Of a stretch of DNA of 36,391 bases, positions 8,495-27,231 are shown in pieces (the first letter of the stretch is position 1; the number at the start of each line of letters is the position of its first letter). The DNA is from Chloroflexota bacterium. Its GTDB lineage: Bacteria; Chloroflexota; Anaerolineae; J102. The notes beneath the pieces are model-generated. The model was not told the DNA's origin. It worked only from the letters and a program-made list of their open reading frames with translations, and made no database searches. The position numbers were made by a program, and so were the translations under genes. The stretch covers positions 1-36,391 of the forward strand of contig JAADII010000027.1 in NCBI GenBank assembly GCA_013151415.1, given 5' to 3'.

Positions 8495-8523
8495 GTTCAT
8501 ATCATCTGAAATGGATCTCAATC

Positions 8524-8784: not shown

Positions 8785-8965
8785 TAACACCTCTCAAGGC
8801 TGTGTCCTTCGTAATGACGGTAAGAATCGAGCCATGAACGTGATGTTCGAGAGCATTAAACAGGGGCTGATCGAGGCCATCAGATTCGCTCAAGGTGAAC
8901 GATCACAGGCCGTTGAGCACAAATTCGCCTCTCCAATACAACAGGATCAGACTTTGTCCGACTGA
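8768..8965 (+). pseudogene. Truncated toxin start fused to an antitoxin-like N-terminus
   Basis: The 65-residue frame begins MNKAISNTS, which resembles the first strand of DUF3368/PIN toxins (xxVSNTSPL), and overlaps the UPF0175 gene end as a partner toxin would. It then leaves that pattern at once. From residue 23 it reads MNVMFESIKQGLIEAIRFAQGE, similar to the first residues of short HTH or HigA-like antitoxins that start MFESIxxGLxEAI. The frame ends inside the mvhG 3' end. The simplest reading is a deletion that removed nearly the whole toxin and joined its first codons to the beginning of another small gene. No active ribonuclease can be made from it. Confidence 0.55.
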
Positions 8966-10463: not shown

Positions 10464-10480
10464 GGTTCCGACTCCTGGTG

Positions 10481-10571
10481 ATTCACGGTTCACGGTTCGC
10501 AGTTCACGGTTCGTTGACCGTTGGTTGTTGAACGTTGGCTGTTGACTGTTGAATGTTGACCGTTGGCTGTT
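10481..10571. repeat. Short direct repeats across the hdrA end and the hdrA-mvhD spacer
   Basis: Positions 10481-10513 hold three copies of a unit like TTCACGGTTC. Positions 10514-10571 hold about five degenerate copies of a unit like GTTGACCGTTGGCTGTT. The second block encodes the last 20 or so residues of HdrA (QPTVN, QQSTA, QQPTVNE), which are absent from the conserved fold. A relative of the first block (GAACTGTGAAC) occurs at the end of the maturation protease gene near 6411-6426. Confidence 0.75.
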
Positions 10572-12579
10572 TCCCGTTGCCGTTGCGCCGCACATCCCAG
10601 AGCACGCCTTCGATCTGCGACATGATCTGCTCATTGGTGAAGTGCGCGCCACTGATGACGCCGCTGGGACAGGCCGCCACACAGGTGCCGCAGCCCTGGC
10701 ACAACGCGGTGATCACCTCGGAAACCTGACGGTCTTCATGGAACACGATGGCGTTATAGGGGCAGAGCGTGTTGCAGATGCGGCAGCCCGAGCAAAGCTC
10801 CTCGTGGATATAGGCGCGCACCGGCTCCATCATCACCGTGCCCAGATGAATGAGCCCGGCCACGCGCGCGGCCGCGGCCGCGCCCTGCGCCACCGTGTCG
10901 GGGATGTCTTTGGGCCCTTGCGCGCAGCCGGCGATGAATATGCCCTCGGTCATGGTCGCGACCGGGTCCAGCTTGGGATGACGCTCCACGAAAAATCCGT
11001 CGAAATCGCAACCCATCTTGAAAAGCTGTGAGACTTCCCTGGAATCGTGGCGCGCCTCCAACCCCGCGCTGAGGATGACCATATCCACGGGGATGCGGCG
11101 CTGCTTGCCGATGAGCGTGTCCTCCACCTGCACGATGAGCTTGCCCTCCTCGCCCGGTTGCCGCGCGGCGTCGGTCACCTCGGCCACGCGGCCGCGGATG
11201 AAGTGCGTCCCCTCGTGCAGCAGGCGGTGGTAGAACTCCTCATATCCCTTGCCCGGCGCGCGGATGTCGATATAGAAATTATAGACCTCCGCGTCGGGCA
11301 GGCGTTCGTGAACCAGGTGCGCGAACTTCAGTGAATACATGCAGCACACCTTGGAGCAATACTCGTGATAATTTTTATCGCGCGAGCCGACGCAATGGAT
11401 GATGGCCACGCTCTTGGGTTCGGTCACGCCATCGCGCAGCACGATCTTGCCGCCGGTCGGCCCGGCCGCATTGACCATGCGCTCGAACTCCATGCTCGTA
11501 AACACATTGGCCAGCCGGCCATAACCGTATTGCGGGATGCGTCGCGCGTCGAACAGATCATAGCCCGTGGCCAGCACAATATTGCCCACCTGAAAGGTGA
11601 TGATCTCATCCTCTTGCTCGAAATCGATGGCCTTGGTGGGGCAGAAAATCTGGCAGGCCCGGCATTTGCCGCGCAAGAAATAGGTGCAATTTTCGCGGTC
11701 GATGACCGGATACTTGGGCACGGCTTGCGGAAATGGTCGATAGACCACCTTGCGATAGCCCAACCCGGCCTCGAACACATGATCCACCACCCTTTTAGGG
11801 CATTTTTCCTCACAAATGCCGCAGCCCGTGCACAGCTCCTCGTTGATATAACGCGCCTTCTTGCGCACGGTGATGGTGAAATTGCCGATATAGCCTTCGA
11901 CCTTCTCCACCTCGCTGTAACTGAGCAGGGTGATGTTAGGATGTTGGCCCACCTCCACCATCTTGGGGGTGAGAATGCAGGCCGAGCAGTCGAGGGTGGG
12001 GAAAGTCTTGTCCAGTTGGGCCATGTGGCCGCCGATGGAGGGCTCTCGCTCCACCAGATAGACATGATATCCGGCGTTGGCCAGCTCCAGCGCGGTGGTG
12101 ATGCCGGCAATGCCGCCGCCCACCACCAGCGTGTTGGGGTTGATCTCCACGGGCAGCGGCTCCAGGGGCGTGTGATGCGCGACGCGACGCACCGCGCCCT
12201 CGACCAGGGCCTTGGCCTTTTGCGTGGCCGCGGCGCGATCATCGGTGGCCCAGGAATCGTGCTCGCGGATGTTGGCCATCTCGAACATATAAGGGTTCAA
12301 ACCCGCGCGCTGGCACGCGCCGCGGAACGTTTTTTCGTGCATATGCGGCGAGCACGCGGCCACCACGATCCGCGTCAGCCCGCGCTCCTTGATATCGCTT
12401 TCGATCAAGTCTTGGCCCAGGCTCGAACACATGAATTTGTAATCGCGGGCCACGACCACATTTTCCTGCTCGCCAACCCAACGAGCGACCTCGGCCACGT
12501 CCACGGTTTTGGCGATATTGGTGCCGCAGTGGCATACATACACGCCGATGCGGGCTTCTTCCATCGGTTTGTGATTCAT
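10504..12579 (-). CDS. hdrA: HdrA, flavin-containing heterodisulfide reductase subunit A
   Basis: The product has 691 residues. The N-terminal part has C16 and C18 in VYVCHCGTN. An FAD-binding fold begins at GGGIAG (154-159). Iron-sulfur motifs are CTGCGICEEKCPK (250-262), C298 with CRACQIFCP (306-314), CSGCRICNTLCP (596-607) and CQGCGTCVAACP (627-638). The LDCSACILTPKM segment near 197-208 is also conserved. In methanogens HdrA bifurcates electrons from MvhADG to ferredoxin and HdrBC; homologues occur in many bacteria that do not make methane, where the acceptor is often unknown. The gene overlaps hdrB by 4 bases (ATGA) and has a G-rich ribosome site (GGGGGTGG). Its C-terminal 20 residues are encoded by short DNA repeats and look like a late addition. 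Confidence 0.95.
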   Translation of the reverse strand: MNHKPMEEARIGVYVCHCGTNIAKTVDVAEVARWVGEQENVVVARDYKFMCSSLGQDLIESDIKERGLTRIVVAACSPHMHEKTFRGACQRAGLNPYMFEMANIREHDSWATDDRAAATQKAKALVEGAVRRVAHHTPLEPLPVEINPNTLVVGGGIAGITTALELANAGYHVYLVEREPSIGGHMAQLDKTFPTLDCSACILTPKMVEVGQHPNITLLSYSEVEKVEGYIGNFTITVRKKARYINEELCTGCGICEEKCPKRVVDHVFEAGLGYRKVVYRPFPQAVPKYPVIDRENCTYFLRGKCRACQIFCPTKAIDFEQEDEIITFQVGNIVLATGYDLFDARRIPQYGYGRLANVFTSMEFERMVNAAGPTGGKIVLRDGVTEPKSVAIIHCVGSRDKNYHEYCSKVCCMYSLKFAHLVHERLPDAEVYNFYIDIRAPGKGYEEFYHRLLHEGTHFIRGRVAEVTDAARQPGEEGKLIVQVEDTLIGKQRRIPVDMVILSAGLEARHDSREVSQLFKMGCDFDGFFVERHPKLDPVATMTEGIFIAGCAQGPKDIPDTVAQGAAAAARVAGLIHLGTVMMEPVRAYIHEELCSGCRICNTLCPYNAIVFHEDRQVSEVITALCQGCGTCVAACPSGVISGAHFTNEQIMSQIEGVLWDVRRNGNGKQPTVNIQQSTANVQQPTVNEP

Positions 12580-13565
12580 TGTCCACCCCCTTTGTGATGA
12601 GACAACATCGAGGGCATGGGAAGCGCGCCTTTGGGCGGCCGCGAACGTTTCTGTTTGGCGTTTTGGGGCGGCTCCTCTTGAATTTTGGCCAGGGCCGGTC
12701 GAGCGTCCACAAACTCTTTGCCAATGCCCACTTCCTTGGGCGAAGCGCCAAAGGCCAGGCCCATGAGCTGCGTGAAGTAAAGCACGGGGATGTGATAATC
12801 GGCGCCGAAATGCTTGTTCACCTGTTCTTGATACGCATCCAAATTAAGCTGGCACATAGGGCACAGGGTGACGATGACATCGGCGCGGTAATCGGCCGCG
12901 CTTTTGAGCAGTCGTCGGATCATCTCCAACGCAGTCTCTTCGCTGATTTGGGTCATATGCCCGCCGCAGCAATGCGTTTTCACCGGATAATCCACCACTT
13001 CCGCGCCCAACACTTTTAACAAACCATCCATGCAAAGGGGATATTCCGGTTCGTCGTGAATATGCTGGTAATCAGGACGAACGACCAGGCATCCGTAATA
13101 AGGCGCCACGCGTAAGCCATAAAGGGGTTTTCGCACCTGTTCGGCCACGGTCATATAACCGATGTCGTCCACTATGACATCCAGAAGATGTCGCACGCGC
13201 ACACTGCCGGGTTCGTAGCTCAGGCCGCCCGCGGCCAAGGCCGAATTCACCTTCTCGGCCAGTTCGGGCGATTCGGCCATGTAATGGTCGGTCTTGCTAA
13301 GGTTGAGGAAGCAGGCGCTGCACGGAGCCACCAATTGATTGCCTTGACCGTTGAGCTTTTGCCGCGCAGCCAGCGCCAGATTGCGCCCAACCAGCGCATA
13401 TCCGGCCAATGCATTGATGGCGAAATATTCGGTCGCGCCGCAGCAGTTCCAATCGGGCGTCTCCTCGAACTCGATGCCCAGACGTTTTGCCACGACCAAC
13501 GCCGACTCATGATAAGCGCGAGCGTTTTTTTCCAACGAACAGCCGGGATAATAACCGTATTTCAT
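12576..13565 (-). CDS. hdrB: HdrB, CCG-domain heterodisulfide reductase subunit B
   Basis: The product has 329 residues. Two CCG repeats are complete: PGCSLEKNA, NCCGATEYF and PCSACF, then YYGCLVVRPDY, HCCGGHM and LCPMCQLN. In HdrB these cysteines hold two unusual non-cubane 4Fe-4S clusters that cleave the disulfide substrate. The last 45 residues (after VGIGKEFVDARPAL) are basic and low in complexity (PPQNAKQKRSRPPKG) and are not part of the fold. The gene overlaps hdrC and hdrA by 4 bases on each side, so the three are coupled. Since the window shows no CoM or CoB pathway, the bacterial substrate cannot be named. Confidence 0.95.
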   Translation of the reverse strand: MKYGYYPGCSLEKNARAYHESALVVAKRLGIEFEETPDWNCCGATEYFAINALAGYALVGRNLALAARQKLNGQGNQLVAPCSACFLNLSKTDHYMAESPELAEKVNSALAAGGLSYEPGSVRVRHLLDVIVDDIGYMTVAEQVRKPLYGLRVAPYYGCLVVRPDYQHIHDEPEYPLCMDGLLKVLGAEVVDYPVKTHCCGGHMTQISEETALEMIRRLLKSAADYRADVIVTLCPMCQLNLDAYQEQVNKHFGADYHIPVLYFTQLMGLAFGASPKEVGIGKEFVDARPALAKIQEEPPQNAKQKRSRPPKGALPMPSMLSHHKGGGQ

Positions 13566-14173
13566 GACGCGCCTCCCGGCTCGAATGAGCCATTGCTGAG
13601 TTCTTTGGCTTTGGTCAAAATTGCTTGAAGCTGGTCGATGTTTTGGATTTTGGTCGGTCTCAAATCCATGCGGCCGCGGGCGAGCATCCCCAGGCCAAAT
13701 CCGGCCATTTTAATGGCGCTGAGGGGATGATGCTTGAGATGATATCGGGTTGCCAGCCCCAACTCGAAGCTGCGTCCGTAGTTTTCCACGAAGTCGATAA
13801 ACGTCTCCGAGAAATCGGGCGCGTCCGCGGCCGTGGATTCTTGGTAATACCCCTCCTTGATGGCCATGCGTTTGAGGGTGTACATGATGTCGGTGATGTG
13901 AATCTCTTGCGGACAGCGCACCATGCAGTAATAACAAGAGACGCAGTACCAGGGCGTATTGCTTTTTAGCACCTCATCGCGCATCCCCGCTGCGATCATG
14001 GCGAATAACTGGCGTGGGGTGTGCTCCATGTCGCGGCCAGAAGGACAAGAGCCGCCGCATGTGCCGCATTGAAGACATAATTCGAGATGTGTGTCGCCTC
14101 CGGGCGTCGCCGCGACGACTTCTTGCATGAAGGTTTGCGGCGAGGCGCGAGACGCGCGGGTTAATGCGTTCAT
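13562..14173 (-). CDS. hdrC: HdrC, ferredoxin-like heterodisulfide reductase subunit C
   Basis: The product has 203 residues. Two 4Fe-4S motifs are present: CLQCGTCGGSCPSG (33-46) and CVSCYYCMVRCP (77-88). They pass electrons from HdrA to HdrB. The start at 14173 (MNALTRASR) is supported by GAGGAGG just upstream; an upstream start at 14230 would lie inside the predicted promoter's initial transcribed region and has no ribosome site. It is the first gene of the hdr-mvh operon. The promoter at 14226-14266 gives a leader of about 46 bases. Confidence 0.93.
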   Translation of the reverse strand: MNALTRASRASPQTFMQEVVAATPGGDTHLELCLQCGTCGGSCPSGRDMEHTPRQLFAMIAAGMRDEVLKSNTPWYCVSCYYCMVRCPQEIHITDIMYTLKRMAIKEGYYQESTAADAPDFSETFIDFVENYGRSFELGLATRYHLKHHPLSAIKMAGFGLGMLARGRMDLRPTKIQNIDQLQAILTKAKELSNGSFEPGGAS

Positions 14174-14225
14174 CGGTTTTCCTCCTCTGTGAGAACGCAA
14201 GAAGGCCCAATACAATCTTATCTTC

Positions 14226-14266
14226 ATCATAGTCGCCTCTTGAATGCGCGACTATGATCTTGATCA
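14226..14266 (-). promoter_or_regulatory. Predicted FNR-type class II promoter of the hdr-mvh operon
   Basis: The core TGAT-CTTG-ATCA lies at 14255-14266 and matches the inner bases of the FNR/ANR/DNR consensus TTGAT-N4-ATCAA. On the minus strand TATGAT (14226-14231, one base off TATAAT) would serve as the -10 box and set the start near 14219. The box centre (14260.5) is then at about -41.5, the class II activator position. A perfect 11-base inverted repeat, ATCATAGTCGC at 14226-14236 and GCGACTATGAT at 14248-14258, overlaps the promoter and could be a second operator or a DNA hairpin. Confidence 0.6.
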
Positions 14267-14657: not shown

Positions 14658-17600
14658 ATGATGCAGAAACGCATATCCATATCTATTGTCACCCTACTCT
14701 TGCTCAGCCTGCTTCTGGTCTTGGCTGTGGGAAGCGTTTCAACGGCCGCACCGGTGGACCCCCCCGCCCAAACGGCGCCCGATCAGGGCAAGGCCGGATA
14801 CGTTGGATCAGGAGTTTGTAAAGGCTGTCATAACAATCAACACACTTCCTTTGTGGAGACGCTCCACCCCTGGAAAGTGCGCCCCAAGGAGGAGGCCACC
14901 ATTGTTGGCCAGTTTCCGGTCACCGATGTGAATGGCCAGGTATGGACGTTGGACGATGTGGATTGGGTCATTGGCGCCAAGCCCAAATGGAAACAACGTT
15001 ATATCAAGATCATGGATGATGGCGCCTGGCGCATTTTGCCCGTGCAGTGGAACATCGCCACTCAGGAATGGGTGCCGTATCATGCAGACACCTGGCAAGA
15101 GCGCGATTATCGCGATAGCTGCGCGGGCTGTCACACCACTGGCTATGACGTCAACACCAAGACATGGAAAGAGCCGGGCGTGTGGTGCGAGGCCTGCCAC
15201 GGTCCGGGGCAAGAGCATATCAGCGGCGGATTCTCTCAGCCGCCCGGACAGCGCAAGATTTATGCCAAGCCCGACGCCGAAGTTTGCGGCGCCTGTCATA
15301 CGCGGGGCAAGACCAAAGATGGGAAATGGAGTTGGCCTGAAGGCTATGTGCCGGGAGGGGATGTGCACATCGAAGACATCTACGACGTGACCACCGCCGC
15401 TTCGAAATGGTGGTATGACAACCCCGACGATCCCGATGATCCTTATCATGCCAAAGGCCACCATCAACAATATCCGGAGTGGCAAGCCTCGCGGCATAGC
15501 CAGGCTTTGGCCAATATTCAGAATCTCCCGTTCACCCAAGATTTTTGCCTTGGATGCCATTCGCAAGATTATCGCGAGGACCCCAACAACGTAACCGTGG
15601 CCACGGCCGAGTTTGGCGTCACCTGCCAGACCTGTCACACCAATCACGATAAAGGGGCGGCCGAGGGGCAATTGCGCAAGCCGGCATATCAGCTTTGCGT
15701 CGAGTGCCACAATGGCGGTTTGAATGCAGGACAGGATTTCACGCCAGGCGAGAAGGTCCACCATCCCATGCGAGAAGTGTTCGAAGGCTGGGGCTTCCCT
15801 GGCATCGACGACATCCCCTCGCCACATTTCCAGGCTGATGGCGGCGCGACTTGCAAGAGCTGCCATATGCCCAAGACCGCGAAGTCGGCTCTGCCCGGCG
15901 ACATCACCAGTCATCGCATGACGGTGGTCATGCCTGGCGATGCAAAAGAAGGACAGCCCGACTCCTGCACCGGTTGTCACACCCAAGCCGATAAAGCTGG
16001 GCTGCAAAAGCTCATTGATGATCGGCAGGGCGAGGTGAAGGCCCTGTTGATGGAGTTGAAACAGGTCGGTGCGGATAGCGGCTGCGGCGACTTCGACGGT
16101 AATCTGGCCGAAGATGCGTCGGACGCTTGTAAACTGGCGTACACCGGTTACAAGATGGTGAAGGAGGAGGGTAGCTTTGGCATTCATAACTACTTCTATG
16201 TCAAGGCCGTCCTCAAGGCCAGCTTTGAAGCGTTTGGCGGCCAGATTTACTCCAAACCCTATGTGGGTTCGGCCACATGCGCGGCCTGCCACGGCGCCAA
16301 GTACGCCAGCACATTGACAACCCTTCACCCCTGGAAAGTGCGCCCCAAGGAGGAGGCCACCATTGTTGGCCGGTTCCCGGTCACCGATGTGAATGGCCAG
16401 GTGTGGACGCTAGACGATGTGGATTGGGTCATTGGCGCCAAGCCCAAGTGGAAGCAACGCTATATCAAGATCATGGAGGACGGCGCCTGGCGCATCCTGC
16501 CTGTGCAATGGAACATCGAAACCCAGGAATGGGTCCCCTACCATGCAGACAACTGGCAGGAGCGAGACTATCGCGACAAGTGCGCGGGCTGTCACACCAC
16601 GGGTTATGATGTCGATCTGCAAGAGTGGAAAGAGCCGGGCGTGACTTGTGAATCGTGCCATGGCCCTGGCCAGGATCACGTGCTCGCGTCCGATAAAGCC
16701 AATGATCCCAAGATCTACGCATCCATTGATTCGGAGGTGTGCGGCGCGTGTCATACGCGTGGCAAGACCAAGGACGGCCAATGGGGTTGGCCTGAAGGCT
16801 ATGTGCCGGGTGGCGATGTCCATGTGAAGGACATCTTCGACTACGATCTTTCCAGCAAACGCTGGTGGTTCGATAACCCCAACGATCCCAATGATCCCGG
16901 TCATGCCAAGTCGCATCGCCAGCAATACATCGAATGGGAGCGCAGTAAACACTCGATGGCGTTGGACAGCATCAAGAGCAACGAGCATGCTCGCGACTTC
17001 TGTCTGGCTTGCCATTCGGAGGACTATCGCCGCGATCCCAGCAACGTGACTGTGGAGACCGCACAGTTCACCATCGAGTGCGTCACCTGCCATGCCACCC
17101 ATGATCCGGGAGCCGAGGGCACGTCGCAGCTGGTGAAGCCGCAATACGATCTGTGTGTGCAGTGCCACAATGGCACGGGCGGCGGCGCGCGGCCCATCCA
17201 GCCTGGCGACACCGTGCATCATCCCATGCAGGAGATGTACGAAGGCGTGGGTTTCCCTGGCGTGGCCGACAATCCCAGCACGCACTTCCAAGAAATGGAT
17301 GCGGAAGGCGGTCCGGTCTGCTCGAGCTGTCACTTCGCTCGCACCGCCAAGAGCGGGACCTGGGTTAAGTGGGACAACGGTTTGATCAAGAAGGGCGACA
17401 TCGCCACTCACTTGCTCAAGCCTCCGCTGCCCGGCGATGTGAAAGACGACGAGCCCAGCGCTTGCAGCACCTGCCACGATTGGGGCAACGATCCGCTCCA
17501 ATTGATCATCGACACCCGTCAGAACAGCACCGAGCAGAAGCTGCTGACGCTGCATAGCTGGCTGAAGCGCCTGGAGGGCGTGGACAACGACGACACCAAG

Positions 17601-17744
17601 TACGCGTACACGGCTGCTAGCTTCGTCGAAAGCGACGGCAGCATGGGCTTCCATAACTTCCCATACGCCAGCGCGATCCTCGATGCGGGCATCGACCGCG
17701 TGAACGACTACAAGTTCATCTACTTGCCAAGCTATCTCCACTGA
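14658..17744 (+). CDS. 18-haem c-type cytochrome made of two nine-haem modules
   Basis: The product has 1028 residues: a signal peptide (hydrophobic core SIVTLLLLSLLLVLAVGSV, residues 9-27), then 18 CxxCH motifs. The first nine (CKGCH to CTGCH) and the last nine (CAACH to CSTCH) occur in the same order and spacing, with a repeat period of 487 residues (1461 bases). Each module opens with the YVGSxxCxxCH signature of cytochrome c554-like proteins and contains a long haem-free segment (WKVRPKEEATIVG to YHADxWQERDYRD). At 14865-14910 and 16326-16371 the DNA is identical over 46 bases, a sign of recent duplication or gene conversion. The ribosome site is GAGGAGGAAGG; starts at 14658 and 14661 are both possible. 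It is the first gene of the cytochrome cluster. It is probably an exported electron carrier; an enzymatic role cannot be excluded. Confidence 0.93.
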   Translation: MMQKRISISIVTLLLLSLLLVLAVGSVSTAAPVDPPAQTAPDQGKAGYVGSGVCKGCHNNQHTSFVETLHPWKVRPKEEATIVGQFPVTDVNGQVWTLDDVDWVIGAKPKWKQRYIKIMDDGAWRILPVQWNIATQEWVPYHADTWQERDYRDSCAGCHTTGYDVNTKTWKEPGVWCEACHGPGQEHISGGFSQPPGQRKIYAKPDAEVCGACHTRGKTKDGKWSWPEGYVPGGDVHIEDIYDVTTAASKWWYDNPDDPDDPYHAKGHHQQYPEWQASRHSQALANIQNLPFTQDFCLGCHSQDYREDPNNVTVATAEFGVTCQTCHTNHDKGAAEGQLRKPAYQLCVECHNGGLNAGQDFTPGEKVHHPMREVFEGWGFPGIDDIPSPHFQADGGATCKSCHMPKTAKSALPGDITSHRMTVVMPGDAKEGQPDSCTGCHTQADKAGLQKLIDDRQGEVKALLMELKQVGADSGCGDFDGNLAEDASDACKLAYTGYKMVKEEGSFGIHNYFYVKAVLKASFEAFGGQIYSKPYVGSATCAACHGAKYASTLTTLHPWKVRPKEEATIVGRFPVTDVNGQVWTLDDVDWVIGAKPKWKQRYIKIMEDGAWRILPVQWNIETQEWVPYHADNWQERDYRDKCAGCHTTGYDVDLQEWKEPGVTCESCHGPGQDHVLASDKANDPKIYASIDSEVCGACHTRGKTKDGQWGWPEGYVPGGDVHVKDIFDYDLSSKRWWFDNPNDPNDPGHAKSHRQQYIEWERSKHSMALDSIKSNEHARDFCLACHSEDYRRDPSNVTVETAQFTIECVTCHATHDPGAEGTSQLVKPQYDLCVQCHNGTGGGARPIQPGDTVHHPMQEMYEGVGFPGVADNPSTHFQEMDAEGGPVCSSCHFARTAKSGTWVKWDNGLIKKGDIATHLLKPPLPGDVKDDEPSACSTCHDWGNDPLQLIIDTRQNSTEQKLLTLHSWLKRLEGVDNDDTKYAYTAASFVESDGSMGFHNFPYASAILDAGIDRVNDYKFIYLPSYLH

Positions 17745-17768
17745 TCCCCTTGCGTGGGGTCTAATACG

Positions 17769-17803
17769 AAGTGCGCTCTCGACGACCAGCCGAGAGCGCA
17801 CTT
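17769..17803 (+). terminator. Strong hairpin after the 18-haem cytochrome gene
   Basis: AAGTGCGCTCTCG (17769-17781) and CGAGAGCGCACTT (17791-17803) form a perfect 13-pair stem with a nine-base loop, 25 bases after the stop codon. Only three T follow the stem base, so full intrinsic termination is doubtful. It may act as a partial terminator or protect the 3' end of the 18-haem cytochrome mRNA and thus set its level above that of the genes behind. Confidence 0.7.
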
Positions 17804-17821
17804 TACTAACCCGCCTTTCCC

Positions 17822-19549
17822 ATGCATGGATTCCGGCATCGACGACGAACGGGTTGGCTTTTTCTTTGGATGAGCCTGCTGCTGGCGGGGCTTGCCCTGG
17901 TTGCATGCGGGCGTTTTCGCGTACAACCCACTCCCACCCCCACCCCCTCGCCCACCCCCTTCGTCGCTCCCACCCCTCCGCCTGTGGCGTCTGATGTTGG
18001 TCTGGGGCCGGCGCCTATCGAAAGTTTAAATTTCATTCACCGACCCTTTGACGAAGGCGCGTGCGGCGCTTGCCATGATCTTGATGGCAAAGACCCAAAG
18101 CAGTTATGGGGCGATATGGTCTCGGTGTGTCGCGAGTGTCATTGGCAGGATGTTCCTGATCCCGATATCGCGCTTGCTCAACCGCATAAGCCCTTTGCCG
18201 ATGGCAATTGCACCGATTGCCACGAACCGCACGCCGGCGCCTATCCTAAATTGTTGCGCGCGTCCATCACCGATCTTTGCAACGAGTGTCATGAAGAGCA
18301 TGGCGCGTCCATAGAACAACCACACCCCGAACTGGCCGCGGGCGAATGCAACCTTTGCCATCTCTCCCATGGCTCCAATTTCACGGCTATTTTGCGGCGT
18401 CCGCAACGCGACCTTTGCGGTTTATGTCACACCGATCAGATCGATCCTCTCATTAGCTTTGTGGAGCACGCGGCCAACGCCGCGGTCAAGTGCAGCGTTT
18501 GTCATGATCCGCATAAGCCGGCTGCTGAAACCGCCATCGAGCGCGACGCCTGTCTGACCTGCCACGACGCGCTGCCCGCCCCAGAACAGTTGGCCCATGT
18601 TCACGGACCCTACGCCGAGGGCAAATGCGGCGATTGTCATCCATCCTTTCATTTGAATCCGGACGCGCCCCTGTTGGCGACCACCCAGGCCGAGTCGTGC
18701 AACGCTTGTCACGAAGAACATGGCCAGGTGGTGAACCAGCCCCATCCTGAAATTGCCCAAAACGAATGTTTGCTTTGCCATGACGGGCATGGCAGCGCTT
18801 TTCCCAAATTTTTGAAATTATCTGAAGCCGATATTTGTCAGCGATGCCATGAGGAGCCCTTTGACCCCGCGTTGGCTTACGAACCTCATCTGGCCAGCGA
18901 ATTGCCGGCCTGCACCACATGTCATTCGCCGCATGAACCGCAAACCCAAGGGCCGCAGGTGAGCGAAGCCTGCGCTAACTGTCATGACGACGTTTTGATC
19001 CCGGTTGCAGTCAGCGCGCATGAACCGGTGACCAAAGGGCAATGTCGTGAATGTCACCAAGAGTTTCATGGCCATCAGTCCCAAGCTCTTGCTCCGGCGC
19101 CCATCGACAATTGCGAGGACTGTCATAAAACCGACGAATTGTTATCAGGGCGAATACAACATGAGCCGGTTGTCAAGGGCGAGTGCAACGAGTGTCATGT
19201 GCTCCACACCAGCGCTTTTCCTGCGCTGTTGTCGGCCTCGCCCCGCCGGGTTTGCAGCGAGTGTCACGCCGCACAAGCCGCGACTTTTGGCCGTAGTCGC
19301 CATGCCACCGAGACGCTGGAGCAATGCGCGGCTTGTCATGAATCGCATAGCAGCGATTACAACGCCCTTCTGTCCTCCAGCGTCAATGCGGTTTGTGAAT
19401 CTTGCCATACCGAGCCGCCACACCAATTCCATCCCGTCAGTGGTCGGAGCCTCACCTGCATCAGTTGCCATTCTCCGCACGGCAGCGTCAATCCGGCCGA
19501 CCTCCGTCGCCCCGGCGACGCGCTTTGTCTGGACTGTCATCGATTCTGA
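17822..19549 (+). CDS. 22-haem c-type cytochrome lipoprotein (doubled CxxCH type)
   Basis: The product has 575 residues. After a basic start and a hydrophobic stretch, LALVAC gives a lipobox with C29 as the anchor, followed by a PTPTPTPSPTP spacer. From residue 78 on there are 22 CxxCH motifs, about one per 23 residues. Many occur as the pair GxCxxCHxPH ... LCxxCH, the doubled-CxxCH arrangement of predicted nanowire-like multihaem proteins. There are few residues other than haem ligands and linkers, which suggests an elongated haem wire and not an enzyme. It is expected on the outer face of the membrane. No ribosome site is visible before ATG 17822; the start is chosen for the signal peptide. 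It stands 77 bases after the 18-haem gene, behind a hairpin. Confidence 0.9.
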   Translation: MHGFRHRRRTGWLFLWMSLLLAGLALVACGRFRVQPTPTPTPSPTPFVAPTPPPVASDVGLGPAPIESLNFIHRPFDEGACGACHDLDGKDPKQLWGDMVSVCRECHWQDVPDPDIALAQPHKPFADGNCTDCHEPHAGAYPKLLRASITDLCNECHEEHGASIEQPHPELAAGECNLCHLSHGSNFTAILRRPQRDLCGLCHTDQIDPLISFVEHAANAAVKCSVCHDPHKPAAETAIERDACLTCHDALPAPEQLAHVHGPYAEGKCGDCHPSFHLNPDAPLLATTQAESCNACHEEHGQVVNQPHPEIAQNECLLCHDGHGSAFPKFLKLSEADICQRCHEEPFDPALAYEPHLASELPACTTCHSPHEPQTQGPQVSEACANCHDDVLIPVAVSAHEPVTKGQCRECHQEFHGHQSQALAPAPIDNCEDCHKTDELLSGRIQHEPVVKGECNECHVLHTSAFPALLSASPRRVCSECHAAQAATFGRSRHATETLEQCAACHESHSSDYNALLSSSVNAVCESCHTEPPHQFHPVSGRSLTCISCHSPHGSVNPADLRRPGDALCLDCHRF

Positions 19550-19581
19550 CATTTGCACCTTTGTCGCTTTTTCTCTGAGAC

Positions 19582-22500
19582 GTGAAGCGCCTTATTTTCT
19601 TCTTCCTTCTTCTTTTCATCTTGCTCGTAAGCCTGAGCGGGGGTGACGCCGCGCAGATGGGCGTAGATGCTCAACAGGGCGCGAGGGTCAATCCCCACGG
19701 CAATTATAGCGCCAGCACCAGCAATTGCCTGGCCTGCCATCAGCCTCAATGGACGATCAATGAGGCTGAGCGAGCTTGTTTCTCCTGTCATACTGAACTG
19801 ACTCATGAGCAGGCGTCTTGCGCAACCTGTCATGAACCTCATGGCCAAACCGAAAATGCGGCATTGATCAAGGGGCGCGTGGCTGGCTTGCCTGTGCGTT
19901 TCGATGGGCGCTCTTTCGGCCAAACGCCTGATGGCATTTGTCGGGTTTGCCACGCGCAAACGCGTTATTATAGCGCTTCAGCCACGGCCACCCATTACGA
20001 AAACCAGAATTGCACCAATTGTCATCCGCATAGCAGCGGTTTTCAACCCGATCCAACAAGTTGCACCGCTTGCCATGGCAATCCCCCGGCCACGGGCGGT
20101 CATGCGCGTCATACGCAAAATGATATTGGTCTGAAACGTTGTGAGAGCTGTCATCCTGCGGTGCGCAACTGGCGGGATCCGGGTCATTACAATGGACGCG
20201 TCGATTTTGGCGACGGCCAAAATCTGCAAAACACGGGGGTGTGCGACGCCTGTCATGGCAGCCTCATTGGCGTGGAAGACGCGAAGCAAGCCTGGCTCGA
20301 AGGCGGTTCGATTCAGGATTGCACCGGATGCCATAACAGTGCGCAGCCAGGATGGCTGCATGGCCAGCCCGCGCCTGCGGTGGACGCGTATTGGACTGCG
20401 AACGGGCACGGCCAGGCCGCGGGCGCGTCTTGCCAAAGCTGCCACAATCCCGATTCGCCCCACTTCACTCCTGAATATGATCCTCGGCTATGGGATAGCT
20501 CTCCGGCGCTCTGTGCGCGTTGTCACTCGCTTCCCGATACGCCCGGCGTTGTGGTTAGCCCGCATGGCAACCAGAATTACGAGTTCGCCACCCAACCGGC
20601 GTTTGTCGTCAACTGCACCGATTGCCATAACCCGCATGGCAGTCGAAATTTGGCCGCAATTCGCGAAAAGGTGTGGGGCCGAGAAATCGCGTTTTTCAAT
20701 CGCACCGGGCAGGAAAGCTTCGATGAGCCGGATCAGGCGAACGATGATGACATCTGCGCCACCTGCCACACAACCACGGCCCACAATCGCAATCCAGCCA
20801 ATTGGCCAGAAAAGATTCATTATGAGGGCGGTGATTGCGCCTTCTGCCATCCACATGAGGGGGATGGCGATCCTTTCACCGATGATGGTTTCACGCCCCA
20901 GGTGACCTGCCTCGATTGTCATAATCAGCAACAAGACAATGGCGACGGCGCGCCGCCCGGTGGCCGGCGACCTGTGCAAGATGACTTCGTGAAACGTAGT
21001 CATCATCTGAAAGGCGAGCCAAGCCAGCAGAAATGCGTTGTTTGTCATGATCAATCCACGCATGGCGATGGCTATATCGATCTGCGCATGCCGGATGGCG
21101 GCCCTAGTTTGCGTTTTGTTCGGGCGCAAGACATTGATCTCAGTGAATTCTGCCAGGGTTGCCATGATAAAGATGGCAGCCAAAACGCGATGACGCCGAA
21201 CGGCAATAGTCGCGACCCCTTTGGCGAGGGGTCGAACCTGCTCGCCCTGCCCGCGGTTGGGGCTCATGGCAACCGCGATTTTCACAATGCGCAGGAGGAA
21301 CCCTTCCGCGAGACGTGCAACACCTGTCATGCAGGTCATGGAAGCGACAATTTGGCCTTGATCCAGACCACCATCAACGGCAATCCCGTCCGCTTCCTCT
21401 CGCGCACCGGCGCCGATAGCTTCGACGACCCCAACAAGGACGATCGCTACGATCTTTGTGCGACATGTCATCTTGGGCGAACCAGTGTTCATCCGGGCGG
21501 TGATCATCGGCCTGCCGGAGACCTGGACTTACGGGGGGCCGATTGCACAACCTGCCATCTGCACGATGCAGACAAGAACATCGACACCCTGGATGGCTTC
21601 ATGCCCTCTTGTCAGGGCTGTCATGGCTCGCCGCCCCCGCCCGCGAGTCGGGGAGATTATCCTCTGGATGAGACGCTCACCCCTCATGAAAAACATGCCG
21701 GATCAGGGCCAGGACAATATGGTCTGCCTTGCTCCACCTGCCATGACCGTTCGGCTCCGGGCTATGCTGGCCATGCAACCGAGCCGCCTACTTTTCAAGA
21801 TGTCTTTTTCGACGCGCGCAACCCCGCCGGCGTTTACGATGCAAACACCCGCACCTGCGCGAATTTGGGCTGCCACAGCAATGGTTCGCCCAGCACAGGC
21901 GCTCCTGTGTTCCAGCTGCCAAAATGGCATGAAAACAGTTTTCTTAACTGTTCTGGTTGTCATGGCGATCAGCTCACCTTGACTACAGGCAGTCATAGCA
22001 AGCATTTGCTCTCTATTTATAGCCAGCGCGGGCGCGACGCCATTGGTTGCTATGAGTGCCATGCAGACACGGCCCGCAACAACGACAACGCGGCCATCGC
22101 CAACACCAAGACTCATGTCGATCTGAAAAAACAGGTGCGCATCGATGTGCGCGACTTGTGGGGCCAGCCCGATTCGGCCGCTTTCAATCCCGCCGACCTC
22201 ACATGCGCCAACAGTTTGTGTCATTCAGATGGCGCGGCCAGTCGTGAGCAACCGGGAGCGCCCACGTTTGCGAACCCCCGTTGGGGCGATCGGGCCAGCG
22301 GCTCCTGCGGCGTTTGCCATCCGGTCAGCCCCCAGACGCTCACTACAGGCGCGCATGCTCGGCATTTCGATAGCTCGGAACAAGGGCCGGGCATTACAAA
22401 CTGCGACACCTGCCACAGCGCCTACATGAGCGGCAAACACGTGAATGGCCGCGTTGATTTCGCCGATGGTCAAACGTTATCGCAAACGACCGTATGCGAT

Positions 22501-23328
22501 GATTGTCATAGCCCGGGGGGCGCTGTTGATGGCGTGGCCGAGGCGCGGGCGGCCTGGCTTACGGGAGCCGCCTTGAGCTGCGAGGGCTGTCACGATAGCG
22601 AGCCTGCGGTGGTGAAAGGCGTGCAAGCGCCCGACATCGCCGGGGATGGCGTAAGTTACGGATTTGGAGTCACCGGCCACGGACGGGCCGGCATTCCGTG
22701 CGCGTTGTGCCATCAGAAAGGGCCGGATAGCGTGCACTTCGATGGCGCGGCCAATAGTTATCGCGCAGAAAAGGGCAATTATCGACAAACGCGTTGGCTT
22801 GTTTTTGGTGGTCTTGTTGCGCCCATTACTCAGGATCAATTCTATCAGGCTTCCAATTATGCTCAGTGCTTGGCTTGTCATAAAGAATCAGATGTGGTGG
22901 GTTTGGAGCCAGATTATAGCAACGCGCTTTTCACGCATACAGCGCCTCCGCCCGAAGGTTATCCCATCATCGTTGAACAGGTGGTTACGGCCTTTCGCAA
23001 TGAACGCGTCGAGGGCTTCAATCTTGGCAATGTCCCGGCCAATATCCATTGGGATCACCTCGATATGAACATGGTGAATTGGGACAGCGATCGGGACGGC
23101 GTCATGGATTCCAAACCGTCTTGCATCACCTGTCATGACCCGCATGGCGTGAAATCGGTTGATCAAGGCGAGGTGTATCCATCCATGACCTTTGCCGATA
23201 TGGGCGTCGTTCATCGCCAAGACGAACTCGGCGCTTACGGCGCGGTGACGCGCACCGATTATCTGACCCGCTGCAACACTTGCCATCCCGCCGCGGATAT
23301 TCGCTATTATCGGACGACAGGACGATAA
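19582..23328 (+). CDS. Giant exported c-type cytochrome with 34 predicted haems
   Basis: The product has 1248 residues and begins with GTG. Residues 1-24 are a signal peptide (MKRLIFFFLLLFILLVSL). I count 32 CxxCH motifs plus two CxxxxCH motifs, CANLGCH and CANSLCH. The latter belong to the C4xCH/C2xCH repeat type best known from Geobacter outer-surface cytochromes: a CxxxxCH followed some 30-40 residues later by CxxCH. Related repeats recur in the protein (for example GRVDFGDGQNLQ and GRVDFADGQTLS around residues 210 and 960), so it grew by internal duplication. The end (YYRTTGR and the stop) falls in GACGAT-type repeats. It lies 32 bases after the 22-haem gene, in one transcript. It has no membrane anchor beyond the signal peptide, and is probably a wall-spanning or extracellular electron conduit. 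Confidence 0.9.
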   Translation: MKRLIFFFLLLFILLVSLSGGDAAQMGVDAQQGARVNPHGNYSASTSNCLACHQPQWTINEAERACFSCHTELTHEQASCATCHEPHGQTENAALIKGRVAGLPVRFDGRSFGQTPDGICRVCHAQTRYYSASATATHYENQNCTNCHPHSSGFQPDPTSCTACHGNPPATGGHARHTQNDIGLKRCESCHPAVRNWRDPGHYNGRVDFGDGQNLQNTGVCDACHGSLIGVEDAKQAWLEGGSIQDCTGCHNSAQPGWLHGQPAPAVDAYWTANGHGQAAGASCQSCHNPDSPHFTPEYDPRLWDSSPALCARCHSLPDTPGVVVSPHGNQNYEFATQPAFVVNCTDCHNPHGSRNLAAIREKVWGREIAFFNRTGQESFDEPDQANDDDICATCHTTTAHNRNPANWPEKIHYEGGDCAFCHPHEGDGDPFTDDGFTPQVTCLDCHNQQQDNGDGAPPGGRRPVQDDFVKRSHHLKGEPSQQKCVVCHDQSTHGDGYIDLRMPDGGPSLRFVRAQDIDLSEFCQGCHDKDGSQNAMTPNGNSRDPFGEGSNLLALPAVGAHGNRDFHNAQEEPFRETCNTCHAGHGSDNLALIQTTINGNPVRFLSRTGADSFDDPNKDDRYDLCATCHLGRTSVHPGGDHRPAGDLDLRGADCTTCHLHDADKNIDTLDGFMPSCQGCHGSPPPPASRGDYPLDETLTPHEKHAGSGPGQYGLPCSTCHDRSAPGYAGHATEPPTFQDVFFDARNPAGVYDANTRTCANLGCHSNGSPSTGAPVFQLPKWHENSFLNCSGCHGDQLTLTTGSHSKHLLSIYSQRGRDAIGCYECHADTARNNDNAAIANTKTHVDLKKQVRIDVRDLWGQPDSAAFNPADLTCANSLCHSDGAASREQPGAPTFANPRWGDRASGSCGVCHPVSPQTLTTGAHARHFDSSEQGPGITNCDTCHSAYMSGKHVNGRVDFADGQTLSQTTVCDDCHSPGGAVDGVAEARAAWLTGAALSCEGCHDSEPAVVKGVQAPDIAGDGVSYGFGVTGHGRAGIPCALCHQKGPDSVHFDGAANSYRAEKGNYRQTRWLVFGGLVAPITQDQFYQASNYAQCLACHKESDVVGLEPDYSNALFTHTAPPPEGYPIIVEQVVTAFRNERVEGFNLGNVPANIHWDHLDMNMVNWDSDRDGVMDSKPSCITCHDPHGVKSVDQGEVYPSMTFADMGVVHRQDELGAYGAVTRTDYLTRCNTCHPAADIRYYRTTGR

Positions 23329-23340
23329 GACGATGGGACG
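23315..23340 (+). repeat. GACGAT-type repeat joining two cytochrome genes
   Basis: The sequence has the same units (GACGACAGGACGATAAGACG and onward) as the inverted repeat at 6311-6385. The stop codon of the 34-haem gene (23326-23328) and the start codon of the 9-haem gene (23333-23335) both lie within it, so the repeat has replaced or become the junction of two genes. Confidence 0.7.
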
Positions 23341-24499
23341 ATTGCAACATGGCTTGTGGATTATTCCGGTTTTGCTGGCGGTCTTGACCGTGGGCGTGTT
23401 TGCGCCCGCCAACATGCAAGCCGACGGCCATGCGCGCGTTTCTCCACAACCCACTCCGACGCCGACGCCTGAATATGATCCTAACGCGGCCTGTGTGGCT
23501 TGTCATAGCATTCCGGGCCGCACCTTGCCTTTGCCTAGCGGCGAAGCGCTCTCGTTGGTCATTGATTACGACGCGTACAAGCAGTCGGTTCACGGGCAAA
23601 AGGATATCCCCTGCACCGGTTGCCACACGAATATCATCGATTATCCTCATCCAGACATCACGGCCTACGATCACCGCGATTTCCAACTCGAGCGCTACAC
23701 CATCTGTCGCGAATGTCATCCTGACCAATATGAGGCCACCTTGGACTCAATGCACGCCACCGCGCTTGCGGGCGGCAATCGCGACGCAGCCATTTGCACC
23801 GACTGTCATGGTTCGCATGATATTTCCGACCCGCACACCCCGCGCCATCGCATTTCATTGACATGTAGTAAATGCCACGCGGCTATCTTTGCGCAATATA
23901 AGGAGAGCGTTCATGGCGCGGCCCTGCTGGAAGAGAGCAATCCCGATGTGCCCACGTGCATTGATTGTCATGGCGTCCATTCGATACATGATCCAACCAC
24001 AGCGCGATTTCGGCTGACCTCGCCAGAAATGTGCGGCAAATGCCACTCGGACGAGGAGCGTATGGCGAAATACGGCATTTCGACGCAGGTCTTCGACACT
24101 TACGTGGCCGAATTTCACGGCACCACCGTCACCTTATTCGAGCGCGAATCGCCCGACCAACCGGTGAACACGGCCGTTTGTTACGATTGCCATGGCATTC
24201 ATAACATCAAATTCGTGAATGATCCTGACGCAACCGTGGTGAAAGAACATCTTCTAGAGACCTGTCGGCGTTGCCACCCCGACGCCGACGCCAATTTCCC
24301 CACGGCCTGGGTGAGCCATTACATCCCGGATCCAGAGCACAATCCATTGGTCTATTACATTAATCTTTTTTACGCCATCGTCATTCCTCTCACCATCGGC
24401 GGCATGTTGGCTTTCAATTCGCTCGATCTGATTCACCGCATTGTTCGGCGGCGACGGAAGGGCCATGAGCCGGGGCAGGAGGTGAAGGACAATGAGTGA
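23333..24499 (+). CDS. Nine-haem membrane-anchored c-type cytochrome
   Basis: The product has 388 residues: an N-terminal signal or anchor (residues 8-25), a PTPTPTPEY linker, then nine CxxCH motifs from CVACH to CRRCH. Several histidines (SVHG, DSMHA, EFHG) are spaced as the second axial ligands of cytochrome c3/NrfH-like modules. A C-terminal transmembrane helix (YYINLFYAIVIPLTIGGMLAFNSL, in outline residues 342-365) and a basic tail (RRRRKG) fix it to the membrane with the haems outside. Its stop overlaps the start of the cytochrome b gene by 8 bases (24492-24499), so the two are coupled and probably form one quinol-linked complex. Its start codon lies in a repeat and has no clear ribosome site. 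Confidence 0.88.
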   Translation: MGRLQHGLWIIPVLLAVLTVGVFAPANMQADGHARVSPQPTPTPTPEYDPNAACVACHSIPGRTLPLPSGEALSLVIDYDAYKQSVHGQKDIPCTGCHTNIIDYPHPDITAYDHRDFQLERYTICRECHPDQYEATLDSMHATALAGGNRDAAICTDCHGSHDISDPHTPRHRISLTCSKCHAAIFAQYKESVHGAALLEESNPDVPTCIDCHGVHSIHDPTTARFRLTSPEMCGKCHSDEERMAKYGISTQVFDTYVAEFHGTTVTLFERESPDQPVNTAVCYDCHGIHNIKFVNDPDATVVKEHLLETCRRCHPDADANFPTAWVSHYIPDPEHNPLVYYINLFYAIVIPLTIGGMLAFNSLDLIHRIVRRRRKGHEPGQEVKDNE

Positions 24500-25553
24500 A
24501 CGCTCGACGTCGGCCCCCAAAAAAGAATATGTGCGGTTCGGGCTTTCGGATCGTATTGCACATTTCTTGGTCATGGTGTCCTTCACCATGTTGGTGATCA
24601 CTGGCATTCCACAAAAATATGTGCCCGCGAATTGGGCTGAAGTGATGGTTTTGTGGATGGGCGGCATCGAGCGCGTGCGCATTGTGCATCGCATTGCCGC
24701 ATTGGTGCTGATTGCCGCCAGCATCTATCATGTGTTGGTCGCGGGTTACAATCTCTATGTGCGTCGCGCGCCGCTTTCCATGCTGCCAAAATGGAAAGAT
24801 GTGACCGATGCGTTTGAGACTATCCAGCATTATTTGGGTTTGCGCGAGGAGCCTCCCAAATACGATCGTTATAATTTCGCCGAGAAACTGGAATATTGGG
24901 CCATGGTGTGGGGCACGCTGATCATGGCGGTTACGGGTTTCATGTTATGGAATCCCATCACCACCACCAAATTTCTTCCCGGCGAGTTTATCCCCGCGGC
25001 GTTGGCTGCGCACGGCGGCGAGGCTTTGTTGGCCTTTCTCTCCATTCTTGCCTGGCATGTGTATAACGTGCACTTGCGCACGTTCAATCGCAGCATGTTC
25101 ACGGGCAAGTTGACGCGTGAGGAGATGGAGGAGGAGCATTGGTTGGAGTTGGAGCGCATAGAGAAGGGCGAGACGCCCCCACTGATTCCCGATCCCAGAC
25201 GACGGATGATTTATATTCCTCTGGCGGTCGCATTCACACTGATTAGCCTATTTCTTCTCTATTTGTTTGTCACTTATGAAGAGACGGCCATCGCCACGGT
25301 TCCGCCTCAGCCTGTGGAAGTGGAAATATACACCCCCGCGACGCCCACGCCGACCCCGAAACCGGATTTGGTTCACATCTTTTACGAACGCAAGGTCGAG
25401 GCCAGGCCGGTCACGCATGACATTGTGGCGGAGCGGCGAGACTGCCTCTTTTGTCATGGTTTGGGTCGGCTGGATCCTTATAGTCCAATCCACGCCGAAC
25501 TCGGCCTGAACAACGCCAGCTGCCTGGATTGCCACGCGCCCGAGAAAAAGTAA
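24492..25553 (+). CDS. Cytochrome b561-like membrane protein with two C-terminal haem c motifs
   Basis: The product has 353 residues. The first 190 residues form the four-helix core of the b561 / formate dehydrogenase gamma type. Histidines in helices are visible in RIAHFLV, IVHRIA, SIYHVLV and LAWHVYNVH and would bind two haem b. After a charged loop (EEMEEEHWLELERIEKG) comes a fifth helix (IYIPLAVAFTLISLFLLYLF). A (TP)n linker follows, then two CxxCH motifs, CLFCH and CLDCH, near the end. The tail is expected on the outer side. The protein would oxidise or reduce quinone and hand electrons through its own haem c tail to the nine-haem partner. The fusion of a b-type core with a di-haem tail is not a common arrangement. 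Confidence 0.9.
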   Translation: MSERSTSAPKKEYVRFGLSDRIAHFLVMVSFTMLVITGIPQKYVPANWAEVMVLWMGGIERVRIVHRIAALVLIAASIYHVLVAGYNLYVRRAPLSMLPKWKDVTDAFETIQHYLGLREEPPKYDRYNFAEKLEYWAMVWGTLIMAVTGFMLWNPITTTKFLPGEFIPAALAAHGGEALLAFLSILAWHVYNVHLRTFNRSMFTGKLTREEMEEEHWLELERIEKGETPPLIPDPRRRMIYIPLAVAFTLISLFLLYLFVTYEETAIATVPPQPVEVEIYTPATPTPTPKPDLVHIFYERKVEARPVTHDIVAERRDCLFCHGLGRLDPYSPIHAELGLNNASCLDCHAPEKK

Positions 25554-25568
25554 AGCGTCTGGCCCTGA

Positions 25569-25598
25569 TTGCAAGAGATCATCAGACTTTTCTATACC
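25569..25598 (+). promoter_or_regulatory. Possible internal promoter before the NapC-like gene
   Basis: TTGCAA (25569-25574), an 18-base spacer and TATACC (25593-25598) resemble a weak sigma70 promoter in the 82-base gap after the cytochrome b gene. It could give the NapC-like gene extra transcription. This is a motif match only. Confidence 0.3.
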
Positions 25599-25635
25599 TT
25601 ATATATTCCCGGCTCCATTGAGGGAGATCGATGTC

Positions 25636-27231
25636 ATGATTCGAGAACTATTCATCTGGCTGCGACAACGATGGAAAGGGGTTTTTGTTGTGACGCTGAT
25701 TCTCATGGTGAGCGGCGCGGCTGTATTCACCGCGGGCGTCACGGTTTGGGAATACACCAACAGCACCGCATTTTGCGGCACCACATGTCACACCATGCCT
25801 CCCGAATATGTGGCCTACCAACAATCGCCTCATGCTCGCGTGCCTTGCGTCGATTGTCACCTGGGGCAAGAATCGGTGTTGCGAGCCATTCCTCGCAAGG
25901 CCATGGAAATACGTCATGTGGTCTACGCGCTGACCCAAGATTATGAAGTGCCGATTTATGTGCGCAGCCTGCGCCCCGCGCGTGAAACCTGCGAAAAATG
26001 CCACAATCCCGATAAGTTTTCTTATGACACCGTCAAAACCATTCGCCGCTTCGAAAACGATATGGAAAATACCGAAAAGCGTATCATCCTTAGTATGAAA
26101 ACCGGCGGCGGCAGCAAGCGCGAGGGCCTTGGCAAGGGCATCCACTGGCACATCGAGAACCAGGTGTGGTATCTTGCAACAGATAAGTTAAGACAAGAGA
26201 TTCCCTACGTGCGCCAGGTGGATCCTGAGAGCGGGGAAATGGTGGAGTATTTCGATTTAGAGTCGGACATCACACCCGAATATGTGGCGCAGCATGAAGA
26301 CCAGCTGCGTCTGATGGACTGCATCGATTGCCATAATCGGGTTTCACACCAGTTCAAGCATCCGGAGCGTTTGGTGGATGAGGCGTTGGCCAAGGGCCTT
26401 ATCGACCGTCGCATTCCCTTTATTCGCGCCTGGGCCGTGAGCATCCTCAAAGACCAGTTCGAGAGTCACGAGGAAGCCGCAGCCAAGGCCGAAAGTCTGG
26501 ACGCCTGGTATCAGCGAAATTATCCCGAGTTTTATCAAGAGAACCAGGCCCTGATCCGCGAAGCCATCGAGGAGATCAAGCAACTTTATCAAGAATCCAT
26601 TTTTCCTGAAATGGAAGTGGGTTGGGCCACGCATCCCGATAATTTGGGGCATAAGGAGTTTCCTGGCTGTTTCCGCTGCCATGATGGCAAACACACCAGC
26701 CCCCAGGGTCAGACTATTCGTCTGGAATGCAACATTTGCCACACGATTCCACGCGTCACCGGGCCGGGGCTGCCCTCGCCGGTGTTGGTGTTGGAGCCAA
26801 AGAACGAACCCGAATCTCACAAAGATAGCAACTGGCTGGCGCGCCATCGCGACGAATTCGATCAAACCTGTGTGGGCTGCCACAGCACCTACAATCGCGG
26901 GGGCGCGGACGACAGCTCGTTTTGCGCCAACAGCGCTTGTCATGGGGTTCAGTGGAAGTGGGCCGGACTGGACGCCCCCGGTTTGAGAGCGTATCTTCCC
27001 CCTCCGCCCGAGCAAGGCGAAGGCGTCGAGCTCGAACCCGAAGCGCCGCCCAGCTTTGTGCCGCGCATTCCCCATCCTCTCTCCGAAGACCGCATCGGCC
27101 AATGCCTCACCTGTCATGGTCCCGACGGTCTGAAACCGTATACGCCTTTTCACGAAGAGGAGCAGTTTCCGCTGGAAGCATGCACCGAATGCCATGAAAT
27201 GGCGCCGGTGTTGCACGAGATACCCGATTAG
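25636..27231 (+). CDS. NapC/NirT-like quinol-linked ten-haem cytochrome
   Basis: The product has 531 residues, starting MIRELFIWLRQRWKG with a membrane helix at 14-36. Then comes the NapC/NirT type opening in FCGTTCHTMPPEY. Its first haem motif is CGTTCH, with three residues between the cysteines instead of two; the methionine after it is as in NapC and NrfH. Eight CxxCH motifs follow (CVDCH, CEKCH, CIDCH, CFRCH, CNICH, CVGCH, CLTCH, CTECH) and one CxxxxCH (CANSACH), ten in total. NapC proteins have four; the C-terminal part is an extension. The start at 25636 is backed by GAGGGAG nine bases upstream; the upstream TTG at 25618 is rejected. It is the last cytochrome gene. Its role is probably a second quinol:cytochrome electron path. 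Confidence 0.9.
   Translation: MIRELFIWLRQRWKGVFVVTLILMVSGAAVFTAGVTVWEYTNSTAFCGTTCHTMPPEYVAYQQSPHARVPCVDCHLGQESVLRAIPRKAMEIRHVVYALTQDYEVPIYVRSLRPARETCEKCHNPDKFSYDTVKTIRRFENDMENTEKRIILSMKTGGGSKREGLGKGIHWHIENQVWYLATDKLRQEIPYVRQVDPESGEMVEYFDLESDITPEYVAQHEDQLRLMDCIDCHNRVSHQFKHPERLVDEALAKGLIDRRIPFIRAWAVSILKDQFESHEEAAAKAESLDAWYQRNYPEFYQENQALIREAIEEIKQLYQESIFPEMEVGWATHPDNLGHKEFPGCFRCHDGKHTSPQGQTIRLECNICHTIPRVTGPGLPSPVLVLEPKNEPESHKDSNWLARHRDEFDQTCVGCHSTYNRGGADDSSFCANSACHGVQWKWAGLDAPGLRAYLPPPPEQGEGVELEPEAPPSFVPRIPHPLSEDRIGQCLTCHGPDGLKPYTPFHEEEQFPLEACTECHEMAPVLHEIPD

Follow-up and report, generated by a model that had tools for sequence, protein, structure and literature searches.

Electron transfer across the wall of single-membrane bacteria is partly worked out, in a few Firmicutes only, and in these the genes are not gathered together. 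The chain proposed for Thermincola comprises ImdcA with 10 haems, PdcA with 10, CwcA with 6 and OcwA with 9 (PMC7911101). OcwA is the cell-surface terminal reductase through which this Gram-positive organism reaches iron minerals and electrodes; it is a member of the NrfA/c554/MccA superfamily, and nitrite and hydroxylamine are also among its substrates (PMC6703420). On the quinone side, CbcL combines nine haems with an FdnI-like domain (PMC6295460). Here we describe a cluster of six multihaem cytochrome genes, g1 to g6, at positions 14,658 to 27,231 of contig JAADII010000027.1 from a Chloroflexota bacterium of the class Anaerolineae (assembly GCA_013151415.1). The window analyzed is the entire contig of 36,391 bases, from a draft genome of 4.5 Mb that is 97.7% complete. 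Judged from its sequence, the cluster is probably a complete electron conduit from quinone to the outside of a monoderm cell, with a doubled OcwA as its outermost member, and its most likely role would be extracellular electron transfer.

Results

The six genes lie on the forward strand and carry 95 haem c motifs (18, 22, 34, 9, 2 and 10 from g1 to g6), of which 91 are CxxCH, one CxxxCH and three CxxxxCH; recounting on the open reading frames reproduced exactly the tally given in the first-pass annotation. The amino acid composition of the six proteins predicts only about 0.5 CxxCH. The 34 motifs of g3 consist of 32 CxxCH and two CxxxxCH, and the 10 of g6 of eight CxxCH, one CxxxCH and one CxxxxCH. 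Relatives keep both the number and the positions of the motifs (22 in g2, 32 + 2 in g3, nine in g4 and 8 + 2 in g6), and the haem motifs are therefore under selection. Reading from g1 to g6, the intergenic gaps measure 77, 32, 4, -8 and about 80 bp; because the gaps are short, the strand is the same and the order is also kept in several genera, g1 to g6 are likely to form one transcription unit. Scans for promoters and terminators gave sites no more numerous than in shuffled sequence.

The first gene, g1 (14658-17744, + strand), encodes an exported 18-haem cytochrome with a signal peptide and no other membrane segment. In phmmer searches of the PDB, the whole protein matched 6i5b, which we take to be OcwA of Thermincola potens, with E = 1e-66, and its N- and C-terminal halves alone matched the same chain with E = 4e-67 and 1e-54, respectively. 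The chain length, nine haems and His-His (HH) pairs of 6i5b are consistent with the published description of OcwA (PMC6703420). The two halves span approximately residues 48-526 and 535-1020, are 58% identical to each other and match OcwA over its full length, with all nine haem motifs in register and nearly all aligned OcwA distal His columns retained in both. On this alignment g1 is a tandem OcwA with 18 haems. The first-pass annotation had correctly placed exported cytochromes in the cluster and had overlooked this identity, which is the strongest functional anchor of the locus. A more distant relative of g1 in the PDB is 6qvm (E = 2e-21), probably OmhA of Carboxydothermus ferrireducens.

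The halves of g1 differ around their haems. The N-terminal half retains the HH pair at each of the two five-coordinate haems, 2 and 5. The C-terminal half has HH at haem 5, and its haem-2 pair reads HR in the window and HH in two related genomes, G210 and G176 (G and L numbers are our designations for genomes and loci). Two columns near haem 9 (aligned chain positions 395 and 399), which are candidates for the Met ligand of this His-Met haem of OcwA, hold Met in N-terminal halves and Leu in all C-terminal halves examined. The full 18-motif tandem is conserved in other genera of the family, in G210 (L075) and G648 (L076), with a fragment in G176 (L054). In a tree with few rows, the C-terminal halves from three genera formed one fully supported group and the N-terminal halves from two genera another, at 93/99; because the halves group by position in this small tree, the duplication appears older than the genera compared. 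The first ~120 aligned residues of the halves are much more similar than the remainder, which suggests either gene conversion between the halves or strong local constraint.

The next two genes would provide the wires. The 22-haem product of g2 (17822-19549, +) is MtrA/DmsE-like and is predicted to be a lipoprotein; it has the lipobox LVAC, a TP-rich linker and 11 paired-CXXCH repeats, and it ends directly after the last motif. It matched 6r2q, a chain of the Mtr-complex type, with E = 3e-15 (phmmer, PDB), and its haem density is 26 residues per haem, beside 25.1 given for MtrA (PMC7399161). The exported 34-haem product of g3 (19582-23328, +) had no relative in the PDB by phmmer. A scan with two peptide patterns, which yields an incomplete list, found whole-length relatives of g3 only in Caldilineales, and the metagenome-assembled genomes (MAGs) carrying g3 are Chloroflexota, several of them labelled Caldilineales or Caldilineae. 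The same incomplete scan gave weaker relatives in two Desulfobacterota-type MAGs and one Methanosarcinales MAG. The C-terminal ~190-200 residues of g3 are 42% identical to the Methanosarcinales cytochrome, and by this similarity they form a module common to archaeal and Chloroflexota cytochromes. In the archaeal protein (L061, 1930-4389; 16 CxxCH plus others) the matching part is N-terminal. Self-BLAST at E < 1e-4 found no internal repeats in either g2 or g3.

On the quinone side, g4 (23333-24499, +) encodes a nine-haem cytochrome with a signal peptide and a C-terminal transmembrane anchor; among 13 homologues all nine motifs are invariant and the C-terminal transmembrane segment is conserved. 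The product of g5 (24492-25553, +) is a cytochrome b of the FdnI/HydC type with a two-haem-c tail. It matched FdnI in the PDB (1kqf_C, E = 2e-14), its histidines 24, 66, 80, 174 and 189 are invariant, and the length of its haem c tail differs widely among relatives. Because nine haem c motifs in g4 are combined with an FdnI-type cytochrome b in g5, the pair resembles a split quinol module of the CbcL/CbcBA kind; CbcBA is likewise encoded by two genes. Homologues of g5 occur in 102 of 249 genomes of the class, and g4 directly adjoins g5 in nearly all inspected loci. The earlier statement that the cluster has few described relatives therefore holds for the whole set and not for this module. It is also qualified by the literature, which describes large multihaem porin-free cytochromes in Anaerolineales (PMC7399161) and an electrode-active Chloroflexi isolate (PMC5808234).

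The last gene, g6 (25636-27231, +), encodes a NapC/NrfH-type protein with 10 haems and one N-terminal transmembrane segment, which matched the NapC/NirT domain (PF03264, 1e-11) and NrfH in the PDB (2j7a, 7e-8). The open reading frame extends from a TTG at 25618, but the alignment with homologues makes the ATG at 25636 the probable start. The motif of haem 1 is CxxxCHxM and a CxxxxCH lies near residue 430, both kept in homologues; the dihaem piece at the C-terminus of g6 is similar to the tail of g5. Extended g6 homologues with 16-19 haem motifs occur in other families of the class (L038, 11187-13562; L044, 14726-17209; L049, 11305-13539), where they adjoin g4-g5, and L038 and L044 also hold single OcwA-like proteins.

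We found no match to Omp85 in the genome; this absence is informative, because the control matched seven other genomes, all diderm or diderm-like. MtrB (MtrB_PioB) was not matched in the genome either, in a search whose control gave a weak match in one genome only, and neither the cluster nor its surroundings encode a beta-barrel protein. The genome has one sortase. With Omp85 and MtrB absent and a sortase present, a porin would be unnecessary, which bears out the earlier proposal of a porin-free single-membrane cell; published accounts likewise view the Chloroflexota as monoderm (PMC5808234, PMC7399161). A porin-cytochrome conduit of the MtrCAB or Pcc type was rejected for lack of any MtrB_PioB or Omp85 match in the genome.

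The gene order recurs in other Chloroflexota, where the first-pass annotation had advised looking for it, namely in Caldilineales MAGs. The order g1 to g6 is found in G014 (L053), with g1 cut by the contig start and frame-shifted. Partial orders comprise g1-g3 in L054, g2-g6 in L052 and L055, and g3-g6 in L056 and L057; in G210, g1 ends ~180 bp short of the contig end, which is compatible with the same order. At L058, g2-g3 are followed directly by g6 without g4-g5 between them, and a g5 homologue lies on another contig. The window's own genome has a paralogous g4-g5 pair (L032, G000:C197, 5450-10474; 51% identity in g5), with a 10-haem protein on one side and an octahaem tetrathionate-reductase-type cytochrome on the other. 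Loci L034 (G210) and L050 show the same arrangement, and L051 shows part of it.

An operon for a [NiFe] hydrogenase of the group 3c type with heterodisulfide reductase lies divergently from the cytochrome cluster, 427 bp away. Its HdrC, HdrB, HdrA, MvhD, MvhG and MvhA-like genes occupy 6894-14230 on the - strand, and a CRP-like cyclic-nucleotide-binding protein (5641-6252, -) stands at its end. An HdrC/HdrA pair (79% and 66%) also lies divergently near the cytochrome cluster in L055; Mvh-Hdr-like genes were found neither near the cluster in L052 nor near g1 in L075 and L076. It is possible that H2 or low-potential thiol metabolism is linked to the conduit, with Mvh-Hdr as its metabolic partner.

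Further multihaem loci were seen elsewhere. Rieske/cytochrome b complexes with a 12- or 16-haem cytochrome c are encoded at L096 (G000:C104, 3335-6640), L052 (5718-9331) and L055 (5856-9383), and in L052 and L055 the Rieske/cytochrome b/16-haem operon lies divergently upstream of g2-g6. A third multihaem locus of the genome (L095, G000:C42, 1941-12543) encodes a response regulator, TPR and NHL proteins, two six-haem proteins, a NapC-type 10-haem protein with 38% identity to g6, and a 1013-residue protein that combines five haem motifs with DUF11 repeats and may be a surface protein bearing haem.

Discussion

We regard it as probable that g1 to g6 make up a complete conduit in a monoderm cell, because g1 matches OcwA, g2 an Mtr-type chain, g5 FdnI and g6 NrfH, because Omp85 and MtrB are absent and because the gene order is conserved. 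By analogy with these families, menaquinol would be oxidized by the dihaem cytochrome b g5 and the electrons passed to the membrane-anchored nine-haem g4, with the NapC/NrfH-like g6 oxidizing menaquinol in parallel. The lipid-anchored 22-haem g2 would then gather electrons on the outer face of the membrane, and the exported 34-haem g3 would take them across the wall layer, in the place proposed for CwcA; we infer the positions of g2 and g3 from their anchoring and size. Finally, the doubled OcwA g1 would pass electrons to Fe(III) or Mn(IV) oxides, shuttles, electrodes or partner cells. The first-pass annotation divided the cluster among modules on the quinone side, a lipoprotein wire and a pair of exported proteins; this division fits g4-g5 with g6, g2, and g1 with g3, respectively, and its suggestion of extracellular electron transfer gains from the match of both g1 halves to a surface reductase.

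Several observations weigh against the conduit. We did not find g1 in the genomes of L052, L055, L057 and L058, which are Caldilineales that keep other genes of the cluster, in a search whose query matched the window's own genome, and in G648 g1 stands without any other cluster gene nearby. AlphaFold2 models were too poor for use, with a mean pLDDT (predicted local distance difference test) of 38 for g2 (6 rows) and 28 for g3 (8 rows), and a filament of the OmcS, OmcE or OmcZ type formed by g1-g3 has no support from sequence, as phmmer searches of the PDB with these three proteins recognized no such filament cytochrome. The activity of OcwA on nitrite and hydroxylamine (PMC6703420) belongs on the same side. 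Since g1 is absent from some Caldilineales and a paralogous g4-g5 pair lies beside an octahaem tetrathionate-reductase-type protein, the quinol base seems modular, serving different outlets. A fuller picture, which we put forward only tentatively, is a self-contained trans-wall conduit in which a functionally asymmetric double OcwA, fed by g2 and g3, may stand on an exchangeable CbcL-like base that is coupled to differing terminal reductases in different Chloroflexota.

The main rival, in our judgement unlikely, is a respiratory reductase for a soluble nitrogen or sulfur oxyanion, with g1 as a quinol-fed NrfA/HAO/MccA-like enzyme outside the membrane and g2 and g3 as electron stores. OcwA is indeed kin to NrfA, c554 and MccA and acts on both nitrite and hydroxylamine as a reductase (PMC6703420), the N-terminal half of g1 retains the HH pair at each of the two open haem sites, and the paralogous g4-g5 beside an octahaem tetrathionate-reductase-type protein is in the same genome. 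However, the 56 further haems of g2 and g3 would be superfluous for an enzyme with a soluble substrate, g2-g6 are retained in genomes without g1, and the C-terminal half of g1 has one HH pair as HR here. Homology to soluble enzymes of nitrogen or sulfur compounds had been named at the outset as evidence that would count against extracellular transfer; such kinship exists at the level of the NrfA/MccA superfamily, but it does not refute this role, because OcwA itself is a surface reductase (PMC6703420).

An inward conduit, in which a partner cell, Fe(II) or a mineral would supply electrons through g1 to menaquinone, with Mvh-Hdr using or making H2, is in our view improbable. Quinol modules of the CbcL/MtoC type have been linked to electron flow either way (PMC6295460), anodic as well as cathodic activity is seen in a Chloroflexi isolate (PMC5808234), and Mvh-Hdr is divergently adjacent here, as HdrC/HdrA is in L055. 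This adjacency is nevertheless limited to two loci and is absent near the L052 cluster and the g1 of L075 and L076; OcwA is known as a reductase, and the sequence itself does not fix the direction. Outward flow is favoured because of the parallel with the Thermincola chain (PMC7911101). That the genes form no single pathway, being separate multihaem proteins gathered as capacitors or for different terminal reductases, is very improbable: the g4-g5 pair does occur alone class-wide, L058 has its g5 homologue outside a cluster lacking g4-g5, and g1 is optional, but the genes lie on one strand, with intergenic distances from 77 down to -8 bp, and several genera keep their order.

Comparison with known systems

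By family assignment, all parts of the cluster except the whole of g3 are drawn from known families. What is new is the tandem OcwA, the OcwA type in Chloroflexota and a whole monoderm route in one cluster. In the part of the literature covered, we found nothing joining OcwA with Chloroflexi or Caldilineae with multihaem cytochromes, which is weak evidence. The cluster places a plausible complete route in a single operon of a phylum that is abundant and largely uncultured; it thereby offers proteins suited to heterologous expression and a set of markers for mineral-respiring or partner-feeding Chloroflexota.

Each half of g1 shares nine motifs and nearly all distal histidines with OcwA (6i5b), from which g1 differs as a tandem fusion. 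OmhA of C. ferrireducens, likewise a multihaem cytochrome on the surface of an iron-reducing Gram-positive bacterium, has 11 haems and belongs to a clade apart from OcwA (PMC7829351). With MtrA/DmsE decahaem proteins g2 shares paired CXXCH motifs and ~26 residues per haem, and differs in its 22 haems, lipid anchor and lack of an MtrB-like barrel. Geobacter CbcL and CbcBA (PMC6295460, PMC12307469), likened to g4-g5 by description and not by direct sequence comparison, share the nine haem c motifs and the FdnI/HydC-type cytochrome b; unlike CbcL, g4-g5 are two separate genes with a dihaem c tail on the b subunit. The large cytochromes of Anaerolineales (PMC7399161), also likened by description, are from the same phylum, very large and porin-free, and the accessible portion of that account mentions neither a terminal reductase of the OcwA type nor a cluster ordered from quinone to surface.

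The closest overall parallel is the Thermincola chain, which is also monoderm and porin-free and has an anchored quinol-side decahaem protein, intermediate multihaem carriers and an OcwA-type surface reductase (PMC7911101, PMC6703420); g2, g3 and g6 are likened to PdcA, CwcA and ImdcA by role, not by sequence. In contrast to Thermincola, where the locus tags are scattered, the genes described here stand in one cluster, with an 18-haem doubled OcwA, wires that hold 22 and 34 haems where Thermincola has 10 and 6, and an extra b-type quinol module.

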